Made by a program: the position numbers and the translations under genes. Below, one piece after another: positions 24,231 through 35,250 of a stretch of DNA of 64,000 nucleotides (its first letter is position 1; each line of letters starts with the position of its first letter). Source of the DNA: Pseudogemmobacter hezensis (lineage in GTDB: Bacteria > Pseudomonadota > Alphaproteobacteria > Rhodobacterales > Rhodobacteraceae); assembly GCF_013155295.1 (NCBI RefSeq), contig NZ_JABJXT010000014.1, positions 1-64,000 on the forward strand, given 5' to 3'. Below the pieces are notes generated by a model. The model was not told where the DNA came from. It saw only the letters and a list, made by a program, of their open reading frames with translations, and ran no database searches.

Positions 24231-25178
24231 ATGTCCTCCAGCCGCGATATTGACCCCGAAACCAGCCTCGCCATCCGCGCGGCCTGGCTGCATTACGCGG
24301 GCGGGATGACCCAGGGCGCGGTGGCGAAACGGCTGGGCCTGCCTTCGGTCAAGACGCATCGCCTGATCGCAAAGGCGGTGACCGAGGGCGCGGTTAAGAT
24401 CTCGATCGACGGCGATATTATCGAATGCGTCGCGCTGGAGGATCAGCTCTCGCGCCGTTTCGGGCTGGACTATTGCGAGGTCGCGCCGGATCTGGGCGAA
24501 GAGGGGCTGCCGCTGCGCGCGCTTGGCACCGCAGGCGCGGGTTTCCTGCGCCGTGAGATAGAGCGCGGCGAGACCCCGGTTCTGGGCCTTGGCCATGGGC
24601 GCACGCTGCGCGCGGTGGTGCGGCTTTTGCCGCGCATCAATGCCAGCGGTGTGAAATTTGTCTCGCTTCTGGGCGGGCTGACCCGCAATTACGCCGCGAA
24701 CCCCCATGACGTGATGCACAGCCTGTCGGAAAAAACCGGGGCCACGGCCTTCGTGCTGCCGGTGCCATTCTTCGCCCGCTCGGCCAATGACCGCGAGGTG
24801 GTGCTGGCCCAGCCCGGCGTGCGTGAGATTTTCGATATGTCAGCGGGGGCGGGGCTGAAGCTGGTCGGCATCGGCTCGGTCGATGAAAGCGCGGGGCTGG
24901 TGGCTTCTGGCATGATAGAGCCACATGAGATTGAGGATATCACCAAAGCAGGTGGCGCGGGCGAGATGCTTGGCCATTTCTTTGACGCCCAGGGGCGCGA
25001 GGTGGAAACCCCATTGACGGCGCGGACGCTTTCGGTCGGCTTTGGCGCGGCTGCGGGGCGGATTGTTGCGGTCGCAGGCGGGGCGGATAAACAGGCGGCG
25101 ATACGGGCGGTATTGGCCAGCGGGCGGCTTTCAGGGCTGATTACCGACGAGCCGACGGCGCGGGCGCTTTTGGACTGA
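24231..25178 (+). CDS. eryD: Erythritol operon regulator EryD (SorC/DeoR-type)
   Basis: 315 residues. N-terminal helix-turn-helix (MTQGAVAKRLGLPSVKTHRL, ~residues 26-45) and a C-terminal SorC-type sugar-binding domain with LGLGHGRTLRAVV and LLGGLTRNYA. In Brucella, EryD represses the ery operon and erythritol relieves it. Lying inside the operon, it is likely autoregulated. The paired AT-rich motifs at 19640 and 20073 are candidate sites. Confidence 0.9.
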   Translation: MSSSRDIDPETSLAIRAAWLHYAGGMTQGAVAKRLGLPSVKTHRLIAKAVTEGAVKISIDGDIIECVALEDQLSRRFGLDYCEVAPDLGEEGLPLRALGTAGAGFLRREIERGETPVLGLGHGRTLRAVVRLLPRINASGVKFVSLLGGLTRNYAANPHDVMHSLSEKTGATAFVLPVPFFARSANDREVVLAQPGVREIFDMSAGAGLKLVGIGSVDESAGLVASGMIEPHEIEDITKAGGAGEMLGHFFDAQGREVETPLTARTLSVGFGAAAGRIVAVAGGADKQAAIRAVLASGRLSGLITDEPTARALLD

Positions 25179-25190
25179 AGAGGGAAGAGA

Positions 25191-25985
25191 ATGGAACAGA
25201 AAACCTGGACCGCAGAGGCCTGGACGGGGAAAACCTGGGTCGGCACCAACTGGAAGATGCACAAAGACTGGGCCGCCGCAAAGCGCTTTGCCGAGGGGCT
25301 GATCGCCTCTGACAAAGACCGCGATCCGCGCATCCAGCGCTTTATCATCCCGCCCTATCTTTATGTGCGCGAAATCAAAGAGATGCTGAAGGACACTTCG
25401 GTCAAAGTCGGCGCGCAGAACATGCATTGGGAGAGCGAGGGCGCTTTCACGGGTGAGATTTCGCCCATGATGCTGAAAGATGCCGGTCTCGATATGGTTG
25501 AGCTGGGCCATTCCGAGCGCCGCGAGATGTTTGGCGAAACCGATGAGGGCGTCGGTCTGAAAACCGAATCCGCCATTCGTCACGGTCTGGTGCCGCTGAT
25601 CTGCATCGGCGAGACGCTGGAAGATCGTAATTCCGGCCGCGCGACCGAGGTTCTGGCCGCGCAGACCCGTGCCGCGCTTGCCCGCCTCAGCCCGGCGCAA
25701 AAACAGGCCGAGATCCTGCTGGCATATGAGCCGGTCTGGGCCATTGGCGTGAACGGCATCCCCGCGAAAGCCGATTACGCCGATGCCCGTCAGGCTGAAA
25801 TCATTCAGGTCGCCGAAGAAGTGCTGGGTCGCCGCGTGGCCTGTCTTTACGGCGGTTCCGTCAATCCCGGCAATTGCGAAGAGCTGATCCAATGCCCGCA
25901 TATTGACGGTCTGTTCGTCGGTCGCTCGGCCTGGGAGGTCGAGGGCTATCTGGGGATCATGGCGCAGGTCAGCGCCAAACTGTGA
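25191..25985 (+). CDS. eryH: D-3-tetrulose-4-phosphate isomerase EryH (TpiA2)
   Basis: 264 residues with a triose-phosphate-isomerase fold. Catalytic landmarks: Asn/Lys in [10 protein letters not shown] (~residue 18), His in [14 protein letters not shown] (~105) and Glu in YEPVWAIG (~180), with the phosphate-binding GGSVN near the end. In Brucella, TpiA2/EryH converts D-3-tetrulose 4-phosphate to D-erythrulose 4-phosphate. Its place between eryD and rpiB separates it from the central-metabolism TpiA. Spacing to eryD is 12 bases. Confidence 0.88.
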
Positions 25986-25996
25986 AGGGAAACACC

Positions 25997-26458
25997 ATGA
26001 AACTTGCAATCGCAGGCGACAGCGCCGGTGAAGGTCTGGCCAAAATCCTGGCCGACCACCTGAAAGACAAATATGAGGTGTCTGAGGTCTCGCGCACCGA
26101 TGCGGGCCCGGATGCGTTCTATGCGAACCTCTCGGACCGTGTGGCCTCGGGCGTGATCGACGGCACCTATGACCGGGCGATCCTGGTTTGCGGCACCGGG
26201 ATCGGTGTGGCTATCGCGGCAAACAAGGTGCCTGGCATCCGCGCCGCGCAAACCCATGACACCTATTCCGCCACCCGCGCTGCGCTGTCGAACGACGCGC
26301 AGATCATTACCATGGGCGCCCGGGTGATCGGGCCGGAACTGGCCAAGGCCATCGCCGACGCCTGGCTGGCCGAGACGATGAATTTCGACGCCGCTGGCAA
26401 ATCGGCCGGCAATGTCGATGCAATCGGTGCGGTTGCCGCGAAATACAGCAAGGTCTGA
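25997..26458 (+). CDS. eryI: D-erythrose-4-phosphate isomerase EryI (RpiB)
   Basis: 153 residues of the RpiB/LacAB isomerase family. Visible landmarks are the N-terminal AIAGDSAGE, the catalytic-Cys loop [18 protein letters not shown], and ARVIGPELA near the C terminus. In the erythritol pathway it makes D-erythrose 4-phosphate, which enters the pentose phosphate pathway. Start is ATG 25997 (GGGAAACACC upstream); an in-frame ATG 15 bases earlier lacks a better site. Confidence 0.9.
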
Positions 26459-26506
26459 GGCCCATTGAACAACGGGCCCCCGGGGACTATCCCCGGCCGG
26501 GCCTGT

Positions 26507-26541
26507 CGGGGCGCGCGACCCTCCTCCTCCTGCGCGCCCCG
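26507..26541 (+). terminator. Intercistronic GC hairpin between eryI and fbp
   Basis: CGGGGCGCGC at 26507 pairs with GCGCGCCCCG ending at 26541. A second GC-rich hairpin lies at 26474-26503. No T tract follows, so I read these as structures that reduce or protect the downstream message rather than as a full terminator. Confidence 0.4.
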
Positions 26542-26564
26542 CCTTAACCCTGCGGGAGATCACC

Positions 26565-27548
26565 ATGCTGCGCCTGCCTGCCGACAAAGCCCCCGAGGGG
26601 ATGCTGCTGGATGATTATCTGACCGGGAAATCCGGCCCGGTTTCCGTGGTGCAGGCTTTTGCGCAGGCGCTGCCGGGGATTGCGGCCCGGCTGGCGGCGG
26701 GGCGGCTTTACTCTGACCCGGCGGCGGTGATCGGCATCAACGAAAGCGGCGACAAGCAAAAGGCGATGGATGACGCGGCGCATCACTATGTGCTGCCTTA
26801 TCTGAAGGCGGCCGGGGTGCGGCTGGTCCTGTCCGAGGAAGCCGAGGATATCGTCACCCTGAACGCCGATGGGCTTTGGGATGTGGCGATGGATCCGATT
26901 GATGGCTCGAACTCTATCGGGATCGGCGCGCCTTTGGGGATGTTCTTCGCGGTGTTCCCGGCGCGTGGCGCGGATTTCCTGCGCCCGGGGGCAGAGACCG
27001 TGGCGGCGGGCTATGCCTCGATCGGGCATTCGCTGGATTACGGCTTTTCGCTGGGCCAGGGGGTGAACCTTTTCGGCTATGACCCCGAGGGAAAGGCTTT
27101 CCGCCAGACCCATGCGCATGTGATGCTGAAGCCAAAGGCCTCGACCATTGCCTATAATGCCTCAAACCAGCGGCATTGGGCCAAGGGGTTGCAGGACTGG
27201 GTCTGCGATGTGGAGCTGGGCCGCGACGGCCCGCGCGGGCGCGATTTCAACATGCGCTGGCTGGCGGCGGCGGCGGGCGAGCTGCACCGCATCCTGATCG
27301 AGGGCGGCGCGTTTCTTTACCCCGCCGACAGCCGCAAAGGCTACGAGAATGGCCGTCTGCGCACGCTTTATGAGGCCTTCCCGATTGCCTTCCTGATTGA
27401 ACAGGCGGGCGGCAAGGCCACCGATGGCGTCAACACGATCCTGACCCGTCTGCCCCAGGCGCATCATGAACATACCCCGCTGGTTTTCGGGGCCAGTGAA
27501 GAGGTCGATCTGATCCGCGATTACCTGACCAGATCGTCAGAAGACTGA
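26565..27548 (+). CDS. fbp: Fructose-1,6-bisphosphatase, class I
   Basis: 327 residues. It carries the Mg/phosphatase motif [17 protein letters not shown] (canonical enzymes have DPLDGSSN) and the substrate-binding stretch [11 protein letters not shown], with [19 protein letters not shown] behind it, all standard for class I FBPase. It hydrolyses fructose 1,6-bisphosphate to fructose 6-phosphate. It follows eryI by 106 bases on the same strand with a good GGGAG site, so it may serve gluconeogenesis during growth on erythritol. The 3' end overlaps the convergent glutaminase gene by 12 bases. The altered DGSN motif leaves a narrower or different substrate possible. Confidence 0.88.
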
Positions 27549-28475
27549 CCAGCCCATCCGGTGCGACAGCATCTCAAGCGCCTCTGCGCCCAGATGCGAA
27601 TTGCCGTTGGCGTTCAGCCCCGGCGACCAGACCGCGATTGACGCAACCCCCGGCACCACCGCCAGAATACCGCCGCCGACGCCACTTTTCCCCGGCAGAC
27701 CAACGCGGTAGGCGAAATCGCCCGAGCCGTCATAATGGCCGCAGGTCATCATCAGCGCATTGATCCGCCGCGCCCGCTCGGGCGAGACGACTGATCGTCC
27801 GGTGGCCGGATTTCGCCCGCCATTCGCCAGATACAGCCCGGCGCGGGCCAGCTGCAGGCAGCTCATGGTGACGGCGCAATGGTGGAAATAGACGCCCAGC
27901 ACATGGTCGGGGTCATTGCGCAGATTGCCCCAGGAATGCAGGTAATTCGCCAGCGCCGCATTGCGAAACCCGGTCGCCTTTTCGGCGCGGGCGACCGCCG
28001 GATCGGCGCTGATGGTGTCATCATCGGCGATGAAGCGCAGAAAGCGCAGGATCTCGCCAATGGTTTCGCGCGGCGCACGGGCGCGGGCCAGCAGCGCATC
28101 GGCCACGACCAGGGCCCCGGGATTTATGAAGGGATTGCGCGGGATGCCCTTTTCCTGCTCCAGCAGCACGATAGAGTTGAAGGCATCCCCCGAAGGCTCG
28201 CGCCCGACGCGCCGCCAAAGCGCGTCACCATGCATGCCCAGAGCCAGCGTCAGGGTGAAAACCTTGGAAATCGACTGGATCGAGAAGGGCAGATCCGCCT
28301 CTCCGGCCATGAAGGTCCGGTTATCGGTCAGCGCCACCGCAATGCCGAAGTGATCCGGGCTGACATGGGCCAGCGGCGGGATGTAATCGGCGGGCTTGCC
28401 GCGATCCTTGCGCGCACGCAGCGTCAGCGTGATTTCCTCAAGCGTTTCTTGCAGGGTGTTGATCCGGTCATCCAT
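27537..28475 (-). CDS. glsA: Glutaminase
   Basis: 312 residues of the serine-dependent beta-lactamase-like glutaminase family. Catalytic Ser-x-x-Lys in [25 protein letters not shown] and the late GKSGVGGGI are all present. Hydrolyses glutamine to glutamate and ammonia. Start ATG 28475 (MDDRINTL) is preferred over ATG 28511. It lies 39 bases downstream of the adenylating enzyme gene on the same strand and could be read through from that operon, but has no obvious functional link to it. Confidence 0.93.
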
Positions 28476-28514
28476 CCTGGCAGCCTGCCCGGGATCTGAG
28501 GCCCCTGGCAAGGC

Positions 28515-29810
28515 TCATCCGCGTTTGACCAGCACGCGGCGCCGCTTCGCCCCCTCATCCGGCGGCAGGCCGCGTTTGACGGTGATTGCGGGCGGCTGAC
28601 AGCCCAGCCCCGCGGCAACCTTATGCAGGGCCTGCTGCATCGCGGGGCCGGCAATTTCGGGGATGGTTGTATCCAGCCAGACGGTCAGCTGCCCGGCCTC
28701 TTCGATCACCCTATAGTCGCGCACCGGCACCGGCAGCGTCGCCACCGCCTGGCGGATCGCATCTGCGGGCACAAGGCGCGGGCGGCCGTCAGCGCCTGGC
28801 CACCACAGCATATCGTCGGCCCGCCCCTCGATCCGCAAGAGCCGTTGGCTGGCACAGCCGCAGGGGCAGGGCGTGGGATCCGGGATCAGCACATCGTCCA
28901 GGCGATAGCGCAGGATCGGCAGGGTCTGGCGGGTGAAATCGGTGATGACCGGGCAAAAGGCCCCGTTGCCGCCTTCAATCTCATCGCGGTCGAAATGGAT
29001 GTAACGCTCGTTCAGATGCAGAGATCCGTGGCGGCAGGTATAGGCCAGAACCCCCTCGGTGCATTGATAGACCTGCTCGGGGCGCTGGCCGAAAACAGTC
29101 TCTATTATGGCGGAATCCTCGGGTGACAGCACCTCTGCGACCGAGATGATCCGGCGCGGCGCGATGCGCAGCTGGCCCGCCTCCTGCGCCTTTGCGATCT
29201 GGCCCAGGATCTGCGCAGGCGCGATCAGAACCGTCGGCTTTTGCGCATCCAACGCGGCAAGATTGCCTTCAAACGGGTTCAACAGATCGTAAAAGTGAAA
29301 CTGCATCAGCGGATTCGACAGGCTTTCATAAAGCGCATTGTTCGCCCGCAGGAAAAACGCAATCCGTTGCTGCGACAGCAGCGGCGAGGGCCAGAACCGC
29401 CCGCACATCACCGCCGCCCAAAGGGCACGCTCGCGCTTATTGGTCAGGAAAAGCCCGCGCTGGCCCGAGGTGCCGGTCGACAGCCCCACCGCCACATCCC
29501 CGATCATCGGCGCGAAATCACGGCTTTCCTCGGATCGCAGCGCGACCTCCATTGCGGTGTCCAGATGGATGCCGCGGGTGTTGATACCGGTGAAATGCTG
29601 CATCAGCAGCGCCTTGTTCATGACGGGCCAATCCGCCATCGGCGCGGTGGCAAAGGCTGCGTAAAACGGCGAACGCGGCATGATTTTCTGCCGCAGCTTG
29701 CGAAGGCCCGCCGCCTGCCAGGCGATGATCTCGTTGCGGGTGGCAAAGCCCCGGCCGTAACGGGCCGCCAGAAAGGCGCGAAGCGGCGAGGAACCGGGCT
29801 GGGCGATCAT
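28515..29810 (-). CDS. Adenylate-forming enzyme, F390-synthetase/PaaK-like
   Basis: 431 residues. The ATP-binding loop LSTGTSGQRGLF is at residues 110-121. A later YQCTEGVLAY fits the adenylation A5-type motif, and LPILRYRLDDV plus CPCGCASQRL (~315, possible metal site) resemble phenylacetate-CoA ligase and coenzyme F390 synthetase relatives. It would activate a carboxylate as an acyl-AMP; the acceptor is unknown. Last gene of the four-gene operon, overlapping the MBL-fold gene by 4 bases. No coenzyme F420 genes are seen, so a true F390 role is unlikely. Confidence 0.78.
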   Translation of the reverse strand: MIAQPGSSPLRAFLAARYGRGFATRNEIIAWQAAGLRKLRQKIMPRSPFYAAFATAPMADWPVMNKALLMQHFTGINTRGIHLDTAMEVALRSEESRDFAPMIGDVAVGLSTGTSGQRGLFLTNKRERALWAAVMCGRFWPSPLLSQQRIAFFLRANNALYESLSNPLMQFHFYDLLNPFEGNLAALDAQKPTVLIAPAQILGQIAKAQEAGQLRIAPRRIISVAEVLSPEDSAIIETVFGQRPEQVYQCTEGVLAYTCRHGSLHLNERYIHFDRDEIEGGNGAFCPVITDFTRQTLPILRYRLDDVLIPDPTPCPCGCASQRLLRIEGRADDMLWWPGADGRPRLVPADAIRQAVATLPVPVRDYRVIEEAGQLTVWLDTTIPEIAGPAMQQALHKVAAGLGCQPPAITVKRGLPPDEGAKRRRVLVKRG

Positions 29811-30643
29811 GGAAAGGCCTCGGGGCAGTGAGAGGGGTAAAAGCTGATATCGGGCCGCGCCCGCATCAGCGCTGACAGCGCGGTAAAGGTTTGCAGATAG
29901 GCCTGCGCATCGCCCAGCCGCCGCAGCGTGCTGTCAGGCGGTGGCGCGTTGTCGCGCAGCGCCGCAAGGCTCCAGGCGGCATCGGCGATCAGGAAGGCCG
30001 GGCCCCGGGTGGTTTTTGGGGTGGTTTCGGGCAGAAAAAGGCCAAACTGACCGTGGCCGTGACCCGGCAGCGCGACCGCCAGCAGGCTGGCCTGCGGGTC
30101 AAGCGCGTGAAAGATGCCTATTGCATCCAGCCCAGGCGGGGCAGGGACGCGGGGCAGATCCTCGATAAAATCGGGTGAAAGGCGCGAAAGCTGACGACGC
30201 AGGCCCTCGGGGCAACCTGCCCTGAGCGTGGCGATGCGCGATCCGGCCTGCATATGCGTCCAGGCGCTGCGCGATGTCAGAACGCGCCCGGGCGGCTGGG
30301 GCAGATCGAAAAGGCCTGCGATGTGATCGGCATGCAGATGCGACAGGATCACGGTGGCGGGCCGGGCGTTCAGTCGCGCCAGCTGCCTGGTCAGGTGCTG
30401 ATCTTCGGGCAGGGTTACCGGGGTCAGCCAGCGATAGATGCGTTCCGGGAAGGGGGCGGTCGCATCGAAAAACGCCCGGCCATAGCCGCTGTCAAACAGG
30501 ATGTCGCCCAGCGTCGGGTGGCGGATCAGCACCACCCCGGCGGGAAAGCGGATCGGGCCCCAGCCCGCGTCGCGGCGCGACAGGCGGGCAGGTGCGCTGC
30601 AATGGCCGACGCGAAAAGGGATGATTTCAGGTGGAGTAGTCAC
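29807..30643 (-). CDS. Metallo-beta-lactamase-fold hydrolase
   Basis: 278 residues from GTG 30643, which has GAGGGAA directly upstream; ATG 30655 adds four residues. The metal-binding motif HLHADH sits near residue 102, followed by further MBL-fold elements (PGHGHGQFGLFL with His and a later Asp in LIADAAW). It resembles lactonase/glyoxalase-II-like hydrolases, so a lactone or thioester substrate is possible. It overlaps the reductase gene by 17 bases and the adenylating enzyme gene by 4, so all are translated together. Confidence 0.82.
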   Translation of the reverse strand: MTTPPEIIPFRVGHCSAPARLSRRDAGWGPIRFPAGVVLIRHPTLGDILFDSGYGRAFFDATAPFPERIYRWLTPVTLPEDQHLTRQLARLNARPATVILSHLHADHIAGLFDLPQPPGRVLTSRSAWTHMQAGSRIATLRAGCPEGLRRQLSRLSPDFIEDLPRVPAPPGLDAIGIFHALDPQASLLAVALPGHGHGQFGLFLPETTPKTTRGPAFLIADAAWSLAALRDNAPPPDSTLRRLGDAQAYLQTFTALSALMRARPDISFYPSHCPEAFP

Positions 30644-31601
30644 GAATTCCCTCATCCAGCGTCACCTGGGGATGGTAATGCAGCACCTCTCGGGCGGCTG
30701 CGATGTCAAGCGTCAGGCTGCGCCCCAGCGAGGCCACCGCCTGACGGGTCAGGATCGGCTCGACCGAGGGGCGAAAGACGCGATGGCCTGTCTCAAGTAT
30801 GGTCGCAATCGCCATGGCGAGGCCATAGGGCAGATGTTTGCGGCGCGGGGTCAGGCCGAAAATCGCCGCTGCGCGACTGGCCAGATCGCTGAAACGCCAG
30901 GCCTCGCCCGAGGTGATGTTGAAGGCGCGGCCCCCGGCCTGATCGGCATATCGCGCCGCCAGCACCATGGCACGGGCTGCGTCAGAGACATGGGTGACGT
31001 CGATCAGCGCCTCGCCGCCCGCGATCAGCGGCAGTGTTCCGCGTTCCATCGCGGCCCGCAGGCGTGGCATCAGCGAGCGGTCGCCCCGCCCATAGATCGC
31101 GCGGGGGCGCAGCGCCACCACCCGCATCGCGCCGGGGCGGTCGGCGGCCAGGGCCAGCGCCTCGGCCTGGGCCTTGGTGCGGGCGTAATGGGTGGCAAAG
31201 CGGGCGGGCAGGGGCGCATCCTCGCGCAGGTTCAGCCGATCCGTGCCGTCGGCATAGATGCTGGGCGATGAGGCGAAGATGAAGCGCTTCACCCCGGCCT
31301 CGGCTGCGGCTTTTAGCAGGCGGCGGGTAGCGGTGACGTTCAGCGCCTCAAAATCCTCACGCCGCCCCCAGGCTGACGACAGCGCGGCACAGTGAAAAAC
31401 AGTCTCTGTTCCTGCCAAAAATGGCGTAAACGGCCGGGGATCACGCAGATCCAGCGCCAGGAAATTCGCGCCGATTTCTGTCAGCGCTGCCCCTTCGCGA
31501 CGGTTGCGCCCCTGGGCGGTGACCGTCTTTCCCGCCGCGCAAAGCTGCCGGGTGATTTCAGCGCCCAGGCATCCGGTGGCCCCTGTGATCAGGACCGACA
31601 T
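30627..31601 (-). CDS. NAD(P)-dependent epimerase/reductase (3beta-HSD/OleD-like)
   Basis: 324 residues of the extended short-chain dehydrogenase family. The Rossmann motif GATGCLG is at residues 7-13, followed by the active-site Ser region FASSPSIYADG and catalytic Tyr139/Lys143 in HYARTK. The overall layout is like 3-beta-hydroxysteroid dehydrogenases and OleD, the reductase of olefin biosynthesis. Coupled by a one-base overlap to the KAS III gene. A natural guess is that it reduces the ketosynthase product. Confidence 0.82.
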   Translation of the reverse strand: MSVLITGATGCLGAEITRQLCAAGKTVTAQGRNRREGAALTEIGANFLALDLRDPRPFTPFLAGTETVFHCAALSSAWGRREDFEALNVTATRRLLKAAAEAGVKRFIFASSPSIYADGTDRLNLREDAPLPARFATHYARTKAQAEALALAADRPGAMRVVALRPRAIYGRGDRSLMPRLRAAMERGTLPLIAGGEALIDVTHVSDAARAMVLAARYADQAGGRAFNITSGEAWRFSDLASRAAAIFGLTPRRKHLPYGLAMAIATILETGHRVFRPSVEPILTRQAVASLGRSLTLDIAAAREVLHYHPQVTLDEGIRDYST

Positions 31602-32644
31602 CAGAATCGCACCACGAGACCGCCCAGCGACAACCCCGCCGAGGTGCCAACCAGCATCGTCAGATCGCCGCGCTTCAGGCGGCCAGAGGTGATCGCGTGA
31701 TGCAGGGCCGAGGGGATTGAGGTGGCGATCTGATTGCCCACCCTGTCAAAGATGCGCACCACCTTTTCCACCGGCACGCCCAGCCGCGCCAGCCCGTGAT
31801 CCAGCGCCGGGCCAGAGGCCTGATGTGGCACTATACAGGCCAAATCGTCGAATTTGACGCCAGCATCGCCCAGCAGCCCTTTCAGGAAACGCGGCAGATA
31901 ACGGGCCGAGATGCGAAAGGCGGTCTGCCCATCCATGCGGAATGTATTGGTGCGGTTCAGCAGCGCCGCATCGCGCAGCCCGCCATATCGGGTGCCGCCG
32001 CCCGCCAGGACGCAGGCGTCATGGCCCTCGGAATAGGTCTCAAAACGGTGGGCCAGCACGCCCTCGCCGTGATCTGCCCCCAGCACCACCGCCGCCGCGC
32101 CATCGCCAAAGATCGCGGCCGTGTCGGGCTCGTCCCAGTTCAGCCCGACAGAGGAAATATCGGCCGAAAAGACCAGCACCCGCCGCGCCCGCCCCGCCGC
32201 GATCTGCATCGCCGCCAGATCCAGCGCCTGGACAAAGCTGAGGCAGGTCGCGTTCACGTCATAAGACGGGATCCCTGATTTCCCCAGCCCCAGCCGCGCC
32301 TGAACCAGCGTCGCGGTCGAGGGGATCGCCTGTTCCATCACCCCGCAGGCCCCGATGATCAGATCCAGTTCGGCAGGTTTGACGCCCGCCGCAGCCAGGG
32401 CGTCGCGTGCGGCCATGGCGGCCATCATCGAAGAGGTCTCGTCCTCGCTGGCGATATGGCGGCTGCGCAGCCCGTAACGTGCCTCTGTCTGTCCCTGTGG
32501 CCAGCCAAGACGGCGGTCGATTTCGGCAGAGGTCAGCACCTCGCGCGGCAGGTAGGCCCCGCTGCCCAGGATGCGCATCGCAGCTGTCTGATGTGACGCC
32601 GCAGCGTGACCAGACCGGGAATCGGGCTTTGAAAGGGGGGGCAT
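31601..32644 (-). CDS. Beta-ketoacyl-ACP synthase III-like (OleA-like) ketosynthase
   Basis: 347 residues from ATG 32644 (AAGGT upstream); an internal ATG at 32578 (MRILGSGAYLP) matches the usual family start. The thiolase-fold catalytic triad is complete in this numbering: Cys134 in NATCLSF, His274 in VPHQASG and Asn304 in RVGNQIATS. KAS III enzymes join an acyl-CoA to malonyl-ACP; OleA-like relatives join two acyl-CoAs. First gene of an operon divergent from tetR, directly behind the operator at 32659. A role in normal fatty acid synthesis is unlikely given the partners. Confidence 0.85.
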   Translation of the reverse strand: MPPLSKPDSRSGHAAASHQTAAMRILGSGAYLPREVLTSAEIDRRLGWPQGQTEARYGLRSRHIASEDETSSMMAAMAARDALAAAGVKPAELDLIIGACGVMEQAIPSTATLVQARLGLGKSGIPSYDVNATCLSFVQALDLAAMQIAAGRARRVLVFSADISSVGLNWDEPDTAAIFGDGAAAVVLGADHGEGVLAHRFETYSEGHDACVLAGGGTRYGGLRDAALLNRTNTFRMDGQTAFRISARYLPRFLKGLLGDAGVKFDDLACIVPHQASGPALDHGLARLGVPVEKVVRIFDRVGNQIATSIPSALHHAITSGRLKRGDLTMLVGTSAGLSLGGLVVRF

Positions 32645-32658
32645 GGGACATACCTTAT

Positions 32659-32671
32659 TGAACGTTGTTCA
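32659..32671. promoter_or_regulatory. TetR operator candidate 1
   Basis: TGAAC-GTT-GTTCA, a perfect 5-bp inverted repeat. It lies just upstream of the KAS III start and downstream of the presumed minus-strand promoter, a blocking position. It shares the TTGAAC/GTTCA core with the second box at 32712. Confidence 0.65.
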
Positions 32672-32676
32672 GTAAC

Positions 32677-32706
32677 TCTTGACCTAAGATCGCAAATCCG
32701 TCAAGA
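32677..32706. promoter_or_regulatory. Overlapping divergent promoters (candidate -35 boxes)
   Basis: TCTTGAC (32677-32683) and GTCAAGA (32700-32706) form a perfect inverted repeat, placing a TTGAC -35-like element on each strand facing outward across a 16-base spacer. Each operator box then falls just beyond where the matching -10 would lie. The -10 hexamers themselves are weak. Confidence 0.4.
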
Positions 32707-32711
32707 CTTAA

Positions 32712-32726
32712 TTGAACGGCGTTCAA
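32712..32726. promoter_or_regulatory. TetR operator candidate 2
   Basis: TTGAACG-G-CGTTCAA, a perfect 7-bp inverted repeat, 39 bases upstream of the tetR start. Same core as the box at 32659. The pair suggests the regulator represses both its own gene and the four-gene operon. Confidence 0.7.
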
Positions 32727-32765
32727 CGCCACGATAAGCCGCGCCCTTTACAGGACAGACCAGCC

Positions 32766-33365
32766 ATGAGCCGCCCCCAGAGAGTTCCCCGCGCCGAGCT
32801 GCGCCAGGCAATCCTTGATGCCGCCCGTGATATTCTGGACCGTGAGGGCGTCTCTGGCCTGTCGGCCCGCGCGATCGCGCGTGAGGTGGGCTATACGGCG
32901 GCCTCAATTTACAACGTGTTCGGCTCGATGTCGGACATATTGATGGAGGTCAATCGTGAGACCTTTGTCGAGCTGGAAAAGCTGATCGCAGGCCTGCCCG
33001 CGAATGAGCCGCCCTCGGCGCGGCTGCATCTGCTGTGCCAGGCCTATATCAGCTTTATGCGGCGCAATCCGGCGCTGTGGAATGCACTTTTTGGCGGCAC
33101 GCGTCATCGTGAGACCTTTCCCGAATGGTATGCCGAGGCGATCCGGCGGCTGTTTGGCCAGCTGACGCATCTGCTGATGGCCCATGCCCCGGGGCTGGAG
33201 CCTGAGCGCGCGCAGCGCCTGACAGAGCAGCTTTATGTGGCGATCCATGGCGCGGTGGCGCTGGAAAGCGACCGCAGGCTGGACATTCTGACCAGCCAGA
33301 GCGCGGGCGAGATTGCCGCCTCGGTGCTGGATGCGATGCTGATCCGGCTGAAGCCGAAAGCCTGA
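32766..33365 (+). CDS. TetR-family transcriptional regulator
   Basis: 199 residues. N-terminal TetR helix-turn-helix (residues ~10-55, with LSARAIAREVGYTAASIYNVFG) and an all-alpha ligand-binding domain with TetR_C_33-type character. Divergent from the KAS III operon, with two inverted-repeat boxes in the shared region. TetR proteins of this kind often sense acyl-CoAs or other hydrophobic ligands, consistent with an acyl-derived product. ATG 32766 is used; an upstream ATG at 32712 lies within operator 2. Confidence 0.9.
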   Translation: MSRPQRVPRAELRQAILDAARDILDREGVSGLSARAIAREVGYTAASIYNVFGSMSDILMEVNRETFVELEKLIAGLPANEPPSARLHLLCQAYISFMRRNPALWNALFGGTRHRETFPEWYAEAIRRLFGQLTHLLMAHAPGLEPERAQRLTEQLYVAIHGAVALESDRRLDILTSQSAGEIAASVLDAMLIRLKPKA

Positions 33366-33527
33366 GCGCTGGCCGGTGTGACCGCGCCGCATTTTAATAT
33401 CTCGAATACCTGACAGCCGGGCCGCGGAAACCCGGCCTTAAGCATGGCTCTGCTTATCTGTCCTTTGCGACGGGTAAGGGTTGGGGAACCCGATGACCCC
33501 GCCGCTTTTGGTGGAAAGGGGTTCGTC

Positions 33528-34032: not shown

Positions 34033-34542
34033 TCAGCCGCCGAATTCGACCGCACGGCGATAGGCCCGCTGGCCGTAAAGCAGCGTCGCGGGGTTGTCAG
34101 ACAGGGTGACGCGGGTCACATGGCCGACAAAGATGTGATGCGTTTCCCAGTAAAGCGCCGTTGCCAGGCGGCATTCAAACACCGCCGTTGCGCCCGCGAT
34201 CACCGGCTGGCCCAGCGATCCGGGCTGCCAGTCGACCTTGCTGAACCGCTCGTCATGATCGGCCATGCCGCTGCGCCCGGCGAAGATATTGGCGACATCC
34301 AGCTGCCCTTCATGCAGCAGATTGGCGCAAAAGGCGCGGTTGCGCAGGATCGCGCTGGCGGTAGAGCTGCGGTGATGGATGCAGGCCAGCAGCGAAGGAT
34401 GCTCGCCATCCGCCGAGACCGAGGTCAGCGAAGAGATCGTCACGCCAAAGCGCCCTGCCTCACCGTCGGTGGTGGCCACGGCGACGAAAGTGGCGGCGCG
34501 GCTCATGCCTTCGACAAAGCAGCTGCGCAGATCGGGGTCCAT
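34033..34542 (-). CDS. Flavin reductase-domain protein, possible corrin reductase CobR
   Basis: 169 residues of the flavin-reductase-like split-barrel family (HpaC/RutF/DIM6-NTAB). Typical landmarks: VAVATTDGEAGRFGVTISSLTSVSADG, RNRAFCANLLHE and the late HIFVGHVTRV. It is the last gene of a minus-strand series beginning cobO-cobQ. Corrin reductase CobR, which prepares Co(II) corrinoid for adenosylation by CobO, belongs to this same family, so the gene is a candidate. A generic FMN reductase is the alternative. The start has a perfect AGGAGG site. Confidence 0.75.
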   Translation of the reverse strand: MDPDLRSCFVEGMSRAATFVAVATTDGEAGRFGVTISSLTSVSADGEHPSLLACIHHRSSTASAILRNRAFCANLLHEGQLDVANIFAGRSGMADHDERFSKVDWQPGSLGQPVIAGATAVFECRLATALYWETHHIFVGHVTRVTLSDNPATLLYGQRAYRRAVEFGG

Positions 34543-34614
34543 GGTCTCGCCTCCTGTCAGATGCAGTATGTATCCGCGCGGCCAGGGCCAGAGGCCCCTG
34601 TGCCAGGCTGCGGA

Positions 34615-35250
34615 TCAATCCTGCTTTTTGCTGGTGTAGTCGCGCCAGCTGGGCCGGTCCAGCCGGAACACTTCGCGCGTGCGCACATAGTCTGCGCCAT
34701 AAGAGCGGCCGATCAGGTCCAGGCCGGGTGTGTCGACATGGCCGCGCCCGGCATCCAGCACGAAGCGGGCGTCGATATGCAGGGCCAGAACCTCTCCGAT
34801 GATCTGGTGCTGCGCGGGCCCGGTCTGCACCTCTTGCTGCAGACGGCATTCCAGCGCGACGGGGCTGGCGCTAAGGCGCGGCGGCGCGATTTTGACCGAG
34901 GGGCTTAGGGCAAGCCCGGCCAGATCGGCCTCGCTGACGCCCTCGGGCGCGTCGATCGCGGTCAGGTTCATCGCATCGGCCAGCGCGAAGGGCACCAGGT
35001 TCACCACAAATTCGCCGCTGTCACGGATGTTCTGTGCGGTATGTTTCAGCCCGCCATGACGGGCCCTGCTGACGCCCAGGGCGACGGTGGGCGGCGCATC
35101 GCCCATCACGTTGAAAAAGCTGAAGGGCGCGGTGTTCACCAGGCCCGTGACGGATTTCGTCACCACCCAGGCGATGGGGCGCGGCATGACGGTGGCGACC
35201 AGCAGCTTATAGGCGATGCCGTCGGCGGTTTGGGCAAAGTCGAAATGCAA
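34615..35250 (-). CDS. Flavin reductase-like FMN-binding protein
   Basis: 211 residues with the FMN-binding split barrel: VMPRPIAWVVTKS near residue 25, NTAPFSFFNVMGDAPPTVALG and NIRDSGEFVVNLV are family signatures. The length and motifs match the longer branch of the family. It lies between the HPP/CBS gene (13-base gap) and the shorter flavin reductase. It probably binds FMN and reduces an unknown acceptor. Confidence 0.85.
   Translation of the reverse strand: MHFDFAQTADGIAYKLLVATVMPRPIAWVVTKSVTGLVNTAPFSFFNVMGDAPPTVALGVSRARHGGLKHTAQNIRDSGEFVVNLVPFALADAMNLTAIDAPEGVSEADLAGLALSPSVKIAPPRLSASPVALECRLQQEVQTGPAQHQIIGEVLALHIDARFVLDAGRGHVDTPGLDLIGRSYGADYVRTREVFRLDRPSWRDYTSKKQD

Follow-up and report, generated by a model that had tools for sequence, protein, structure and literature searches.

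What does an operon that joins a ketosynthase to a reductase, a hydrolase and an adenylating enzyme make? The question is raised by a stretch of 64,000 nucleotides from Pseudogemmobacter hezensis (assembly GCF_013155295.1, contig NZ_JABJXT010000014.1, positions 1 to 64,000), which is called the window here. Four genes lie in a row on its minus strand. The promoter-proximal gene encodes a KAS III-type ketosynthase (KS; 31601-32644), and it is followed by the genes for an NAD(P)-dependent reductase of the SDR/epimerase family (30627-31601), a hydrolase of the metallo-beta-lactamase (MBL) fold (29807-30655) and a PaaK/F390-synthetase-like adenylating enzyme (28515-29810). The gene for a TetR-family regulator (32766-33365) stands on the plus strand, divergent from the operon. 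An earlier reading of the DNA without database searches (the sequence-only reading) had placed the four genes and tetR in this way and called them an acyl-modifying operon with its own divergent TetR. The list of open reading frames (ORFs) confirmed the coordinates, and the protein families, intact motifs and gene order support that description. Neighbouring genes overlap by 1 base (KS and reductase), 29 bases (reductase and MBL) and 4 bases (MBL and adenylating enzyme), in agreement with the translational coupling that had also been proposed.

We propose, with a probability of roughly 45%, that this conserved four-enzyme core makes a beta-hydroxylated acyl lipid: an acid would be activated, extended by condensation, reduced and released by hydrolysis, and the lipid would then be tailored in a lineage-specific way. 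In this scheme, whose substrates, reaction order and product we infer, the adenylating enzyme would convert a carboxylic acid, most likely a fatty acid, to an acyl-AMP and then to a thioester that is passed on. KS would join the thioester to an activated nucleophile, malonyl-ACP or beta-ketoacyl-ACP (ACP, acyl carrier protein), the reductase would turn the beta-keto group into a beta-hydroxyl, and the MBL hydrolase would cut a thioester, ester or lactone, freeing the product. Lineage-specific neighbours would then modify this product, in several lineages by a polar group on the hydroxyl; in the alphaproteobacterial lineage the partner would be a tetR-linked sulfotransferase.

Conservation and spread of the four-gene core

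A contig scan with the adenylating enzyme found at least 575 relatives, and the best 80 were kept; these loci were picked by adenylating-enzyme similarity and are not an unbiased sample. Among them, tblastn at E 1e-3 found KS in 73, the reductase in 77, MBL in 79 and TetR in 7. The exact order KS-reductase-MBL-adenylating enzyme, defined as one strand and within 8 kb with other genes allowed between, recurs in 62 of the 80. Thus, the synteny that the sequence-only reading had suggested looking for exists, and because of this recurrence the operon is more than a chance arrangement. Five other loci have KS last and one has another order, and in the remaining 12 a match is missing or lies on the other strand, several of these at contig ends. 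All these counts come from tblastn; operon parsing missed the adenylating gene in L033, L041, L059, L067, L092, L099 and L110. The regulator had been called dedicated. This holds in the window's lineage, where tetR pairs with the cassette, but only there, as the seven loci show.

Going by record titles, the best 80 loci belong to Alpha-, Beta- and Gammaproteobacteria, Campylobacterota, Bacillota, Cyanobacteriota, Bacteroidota, Bdellovibrionota, Verrucomicrobiota, Acidobacteriota and Saccharibacteria. A further copy, from Fusobacterium vincentii, was found in the plasmid collection, in an unannotated record of 2.1 Mb. Distribution within the window's family is patchy: 7 of 120 evenly drawn genomes, the window's included, match TIGR02304 at E 1e-40, four of them over its cut-off, and no partner gene was found beside the match in one drawn genome, G019. 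Nine of the 13 genomes of the genus (its own included) have an adenylating-enzyme match of at least 217 bits, each adjoined by the reductase and MBL. KS was seen in the window and in three more diverged copies, and the other fetched loci of the genus end before KS. A second, diverged cassette lineage was observed in the genus (L171, L172 and L173, in genomes G011, G002 and G006), with an adenylating enzyme 33-37% identical. In G006, ATP-grasp, GNAT and Rieske genes adjoin it, and in G002 and G006 a membrane acyltransferase-like gene, read from its translation, lies near it.

In Escherichia coli, 672 of 5,426 complete genomes (about 12%) match a seven-gene version of the cassette, 671 of them over at least 80% of the stretch, and this version is chromosomal in 671 of 673 places. 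It sits after narGHJI in two records inspected, one of which is a plasmid; on the chromosome of L119 it lies between narGHJI and tRNA-Tyr/purU. Large plasmids carry several copies (L113, L114 and others), and Ketogulonicigenium pKvSKV1 is typed as conjugative. Plasmid carriage may be one reason why the distribution is patchy.

The enzyme families are all known ones. Their combination and spread, however, match no characterised pathway in the literature searched, and the sequence-only reading had not matched the set to one either: among the listings seen of open-licence papers in PubMed Central, a scope outside which bioRxiv and most subscription-only papers fall, none describes the cassette. 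As far as the parts of the papers seen go, three leads were set aside. Ladderane-type clusters with an 'F390 synthetase' (PMC2649909) are other gene sets, a paper on motility of E. coli ST131 (PMC5425062) is unrelated to the cassette, and coenzyme F390 synthetase in Pseudomonas and Acinetobacter (PMC9823363, PMC5467263, PMC5501837) shares the gene name only.

The ketosynthase and its three partner enzymes

KS has the Pfam domain ACP_syn_III. Its Cys/His/Asn triad, which had been described as intact, is Cys134/His274/Asn304 and is common to 77 of 77 aligned cassette rows, the window included (KS and reductase rows were required to have more than 250 matched residues). The start of KS is uncertain because the predicted local distance difference test score (pLDDT) is low at the N-terminus, mostly below 50 for residues 1-17, and homology starts at about residue 22; translation may instead begin at the ATG at about 32578. 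A tree of 43 rows splits the cassette KSs at 100/100, by a branch of 1.38, from ten further KAS IIIs that the same genomes carry and that were taken as FabH. This tree omits ten rows of our first tree (two OleA and eight other KAS III, with long or deep branches), and its row L155, labelled 'other', is by coordinates the cassette KS of L062. The window KS scores 223.9 bits with the fabH model TIGR00747, under the cut-off of 292.1, and the window genome has another KAS III, on contig C3, which we take as its FabH. On these three grounds housekeeping FabH was rejected as the identity of KS, and the clustering with FabH that the sequence-only reading had warned of was not seen. The NCBI model NF005541/PRK07204 is matched by 43 of 43 scanned KSs; the window KS reaches 363.7 bits, under the cut-off of 402.

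The sequence-only reading had drawn a parallel between KS and OleA. In the sections of PMC4578411 that deal with this residue, Glu117 of OleA and Glu105 of PpyS are a Glu base, MxnB and CorB have Val there, and E105A abolished photopyrone production by PpyS. It is also argued there, for MxnB and CorB, that without the Glu base the nucleophile is already activated. The window KS has Ile107 at this position. Among 76 further KSs of the cassette, Ile stands there in 54, Leu in 14, Met in 7, Val in 1 and Glu in none (the window and L002, a copy of the window, were left out of this count); both Shewanella OleAs carry Glu. This disfavours OleA-type condensation, and the parallel with OleA was not supported. 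By sequence, the best solved relatives of KS are CorB (222 bits), MxnB (214) and Aquifex FabH (191), and OleA entries reach at most 67. The AlphaFold2 model of KS (pLDDT 90.5) is nearest to MxnB, with Z 46.5, a root-mean-square deviation of 1.7 over 320 residues and 36% identity; FabHs follow at Z 44.7 and lower, and OleA has Z 41.9 and 24% identity. Furthermore, MxnB and CorB branch inside the cassette KS clade of the 43-row tree (forks 99/97 and 99/94). Because the OleA-type Glu is absent and MxnB and CorB lie within the clade, KS probably uses an already activated nucleophile, malonyl or beta-ketoacyl, and not a plain fatty acyl chain.

The reductase matches Epimerase and 3Beta_HSD in Pfam, and its best named family is OleD (equivalog NF042422, 202.2 bits, under the cut-off of 580). 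Its YxxxK motif, at residues 139-143 in the window, is present in 84 of 84 rows, which include the window, L002 and two OleDs; L093 was left out of this count, its match being 29% identical and standing elsewhere. The adenylating enzyme scores 412.7 bits with TIGR02304 ('F390 synthetase-related protein', cut-off 251.9) and has no Pfam match at E 0.1. The S, G, T and G of STGTSG and the Y and E of YQCTEG occur in 48 of 48 adenylating enzymes, and Lys422 occurs in 38, with gaps in the other 10.

The MBL hydrolase matches Lactamase_B. The ligands H106, H108, D110, H111, H199 and D225 are present in 57 of 57 rows and H276 in 54, with 3 gaps; the metal-ligand set of lactonases (HxHxDH, H, D and the last H) is complete. 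The 29 best structural matches of its model (pLDDT 96.4) are mostly N-acyl-homoserine lactone (AHL) lactonases, 4-pyridoxolactonase and relatives of methyl-parathion hydrolase, at Z 20 to 25.7, and the rows after these drop to a Z of about 17. Identity is 13-20% in the 21 best structural rows, and the sequence profile also places MBL with lactonases. The Tyr of the lactonase DAxY motif, which GcL has at the aligned place, is presumably catalytic (Tyr194 in AiiA). This position is Trp in 53, Tyr in 3 and Phe in 1 of the 57 MBLs, and the window has Trp228. Judged by sequence and model, the MBL is lactonase-like, a putative lactonase at most.

A contig labelled Saccharibacteria (L047) bears on the KS partner. 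Its core runs reductase-MBL-adenylating enzyme-KS, and behind it stand genes for ACP, a biotin carboxyl carrier protein (BCCP) and a biotin carboxylase, the last named from its translation. In this genome, whose completeness is not told, the cassette's is the only KAS III match, and KAS I/II gave no match. Taken together, these findings suggest malonyl-ACP as the partner of KS, and the adenylating enzyme would act on acids taken up from outside.

One reading of these four enzymes is an analogue of OleABCD. KS would make a 2-alkyl-3-keto acid from two acyl-CoAs, the reductase would give the beta-hydroxy acid, the adenylating enzyme would close a beta-lactone as OleC does, and MBL would open or decarboxylate it as OleB does. 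The best named family of the reductase and the lactonase relatives of MBL fit this order and make a lactone step possible, and an alpha/beta-hydrolase adjoins the cassette of L094 (Bacteroidota), the one locus with an OleB-type hydrolase beside it. KS does not fit, as it is far nearer to CorB and MxnB by score, nearer to MxnB by structure, and not OleA-like at the Glu position. As the sequence-only reading had noted, the last two steps would use families unrelated to OleC and OleB: the PF00501 ligase and the alpha/beta-hydrolase of that pathway are absent, and a TIGR02304 enzyme and an MBL stand instead. In addition, two Shewanella genomes keep both an oleABCD-type cluster and the cassette (the cluster was read from gene order and translations, and its OleD match is under the curated cut-off). 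We consider such a pathway unlikely, and of the analogy with OleABCD no more than the general logic remains.

Another reading is a pathway to a pyrone or lactone. Here an MxnB-like KS would join beta-ketoacyl and acyl chains to an alpha-pyrone or related lactone, and the reductase and the lactonase-like MBL would then modify the product, which may be a signal. MxnB and CorB are inside the KS clade, are the best sequence matches of KS and share its hydrophobic residue at the Glu position, and MxnB is also its best structure match; the fold class of MBL and the TetR-box-like palindromes described below are also in line with it. Pyrone formation, however, is not known to need a reductase or an adenylating enzyme. 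Moreover, no polyketide synthase (PKS) was read among the ORFs of 25-37 kb, of which six proteins were domain-scanned, other loci have lipid-type tailoring genes, and the lactonase Tyr is mostly replaced by Trp. A pyrone product is improbable.

Tailoring genes, the regulator and a lost sulfotransferase

Partner genes of the core were searched by tblastn at E 1e-4 in the window and 87 loci (88 sequences, in which the two E. coli loci are near copies), and partner families were named from single representatives (Pfam, NCBIfam) and from record annotation. A Rieske oxygenase occurs in 19 of the 88 (one, at L114, is a weak and distant match), a sulfotransferase in 8, PAP2 in 7 and a fatty-acid hydroxylase in 6. 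PAP2, a fatty-acid hydroxylase and a desaturase are the partners in the E. coli version. Sulfotransferases adjoin two Bacteroidota copies too. Three betaproteobacterial loci have a condensation-type or nonribosomal peptide synthetase (NRPS)-like protein after the core, by reading; two of these NRPS-like proteins were scanned, and PP-binding was found in both and AMP-binding in one. GT21 glycosyltransferases lie near the core in one locus each of Paenibacillus caui (Bacillota), Fusobacterium vincentii (Fusobacteriota) and a Verrucomicrobiales genome (Verrucomicrobiota). Much of this partner chemistry could place a polar group onto a lipid hydroxyl or modify the chain.

The sulfotransferase is the partner of the window's own lineage. 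In eight alphaproteobacterial loci its gene follows tetR, and a ninth tetR locus, L046, is without it. In five of six genus genomes with a close cassette, some 3.5 kb separate it from the adenylating gene; part of these genomes probably coincide with named loci, since the copy of G001 is identical to that of L034. The sixth genome is the window's, anywhere in which no match to the sulfotransferase was found. By blastn, window 26001-33376 matches L034 10841-3487 in a single alignment and window 33391-35783 matches L034 2395-5. Between them, a scar of 14 bases (33377-33390) replaces about 1,091 bases of L034, and these hold the sulfotransferase gene, lacking no more than a few codons at its start. 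Because the gene also stands beside tetR in Paracoccus and Ketogulonicigenium, its loss in the window strain is likelier than a gain elsewhere. Because the gene is lost, the product of this strain should be unsulfated. Beyond the scar, two adjacent flavin-reductase-like ORFs (34033-35250) were read from translations, in a stretch that aligns with L034.

The region between tetR and KS holds two candidate operators. O1 is a TetR operator-like palindrome, TTATTGAACGTTGTTCAGTAA (32655-32675), and O2 is a second one, TTGAACGGCGTTCAA (32712-32726). They flank a divergent pair of -35-like elements, TTGAC at 32679-32683 on the plus strand and GTCAAG at 32700-32705 (TTGAC on the minus strand), whose columns are invariant in six aligned sequences, the window included, and which we infer to be divergent promoters. 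The window has three matches to O2 with at most three mismatches, which is not rare (23 of 100 shuffles reach three), and the perfect copy of O2 and its neighbour palindrome both fall in the divergent promoter. Six genomes of the genus each hold a single copy of a longer form of the palindrome, TTNNTGAACNNNGTTCANNAA; it lies at the cassette promoter in the window genome, and on the cassette's contig at a matching distance in the other five. The layout would look like a dedicated repressor-operator pair with putative operators, and TetR probably represses both the operon and its own gene by way of O1 and O2. Elsewhere in the window genome, the shorter form, TTGAACGNNGTTCA, recurs at a single site, just before another tetR-like gene. 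This gene (L170:3417-4043, on contig C62 of genome G000; TetR-like by translation) is preceded by TTGAACGTCGTTCA. It is possibly a paralogous regulator with cross-talk. The site led to no new lipid gene.

The partners also bring up sphingolipid-like membrane lipids made without a start by serine palmitoyltransferase, the cassette making the hydroxylated backbone. GT21, which we take to be the ceramide glucosyltransferase family, is near the core in three phyla, but these GT21s match only HpnI as a named family, weakly and under cut-off. The E. coli PAP2 bears a weak resemblance to phosphoinositol dihydroceramide synthase (E 2.4e-4; 20.6 of 480 bits), and the E. coli hydroxylase resembles OlsE (66.6 of 475 bits). 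An SDR that recurs, in 10 loci at 42% identity or more and in 14 at E 1e-4, reaches 183 bits with the KdsR model; this is, however, under the cut-off of 400 and below general SDR models. GNAT and ATP-grasp proteins could add an amine or acyl group. Against this, the four-gene core has no nitrogen-introducing enzyme, and the similarities are mostly weak and at superfamily level. We put little weight on a sphingolipid-like product in this form. A wider version is possible, though doubtful: the cassette may be the KAS III-route backbone of an unrecognised sphingolipid-like lipid class, its shared hydroxylated core capped with sulfate, sugar, phospho-groups or amino acids by phylum, about 12% of complete E. 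coli genomes included, and MxnB and CorB may have been recruited from its KS family. Least probable of all is that the cassette has no dedicated end product and serves a general side path that, for instance, salvages or extends unusual exogenous acids, a reading which the patchy distribution (7 of 120 family genomes) and the loci with no evident tailoring genes beside the core (e.g., L078 and the window itself) would allow, but against which the own TetR and palindromes in the window lineage, the repeated pairing with tailoring genes and the same gene order across several phyla speak.

Several observations weigh against our own proposal of a beta-hydroxylated acyl lipid. The commonest partners are ATP-grasp (50 of 88) and GNAT (PF13480; 42 of 88), pointing to amide or amino-acid chemistry and less to the capping of hydroxyls; neither has a match among solved structures, and GNAT has none in NCBIfam. 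Tailoring genes differ so widely between loci that a single product common to all is uncertain. MBL groups with lactonases and not with known thioesterases, and thioester release is a guess. The malonyl-ACP argument is weakened, as FabD and phosphopantetheinyl transferase gave no match in the L047 genome, with the same caution about its completeness, and single-sequence phmmer with the L047 ACP found no other in the 87 loci. As for KS, CorB has Z 43.5, below several FabHs in the structure comparison, and our first tree puts OleA among the cassette KSs, its branch measuring 4.5 changes per column. We take this placement for long-branch attraction but cannot prove it, and the true place of OleA is unsure. 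What argues for the proposal is that the core is kept as a block, with interchangeable partners, from Saccharibacteria and Fusobacteriota to E. coli; it probably makes a lipid unmatched to any described pathway. With its palindromes, its divergent TetR and a sulfotransferase that was lost naturally, the cassette lends itself to direct tests of function.

Other genes near the operon were considered. A glutaminase gene (27537-28511) lies directly downstream on the same strand. By tblastn, glutaminase is near the core in 2 of the best 80 loci, and it is also near the core in four other genus genomes, some possibly among those two loci; no match was found in L035 or in the Paracoccus loci L039 and L040. 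It was rejected as a part of the system and is a genus-level neighbour only. At 24231-27548, a sugar-type regulator, triosephosphate isomerase, ribose-5-phosphate isomerase B and a phosphatase stand in a row, which looks like a polyol or sugar catabolic operon from a reading of the ORFs.

Comparison with known systems

TIGR02304 and NF005541/PRK07204 are the NCBI names for the adenylating enzyme and the cassette-type KS, and the models carry no pathway. KS shares its fold and triad with FabH but forms a separate 100/100 clade. The cassette MBL shares the fold subfamily (at a Z of about 23-26) and metal ligands of AHL lactonases (AiiA, AiiB, GcL) and 4-pyridoxolactonase; its identity to them is low, and it mostly has a Trp in place of the catalytic Tyr. 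With OleABCD, the cassette shares the logic of condensing, reducing, activating and hydrolysing, and its reductase is nearest to OleD; it differs in a KS without Glu117, in a PaaK-like ligase and in an MBL where OleB is an alpha/beta-hydrolase.

The closest likeness of KS is to MxnB and CorB, of myxopyronin and corallopyronin. They have the same Cys/His/Asn triad, are without the OleA-type Glu and have a hydrophobic residue there, and they belong to the same clade. MxnB and CorB act in type I PKS pathways, and we know of no OleD-like, MBL or PaaK-like partner for them. The ketosynthases of the myxopyronin and corallopyronin pathways may thus have originated in the KS family of the cassette.

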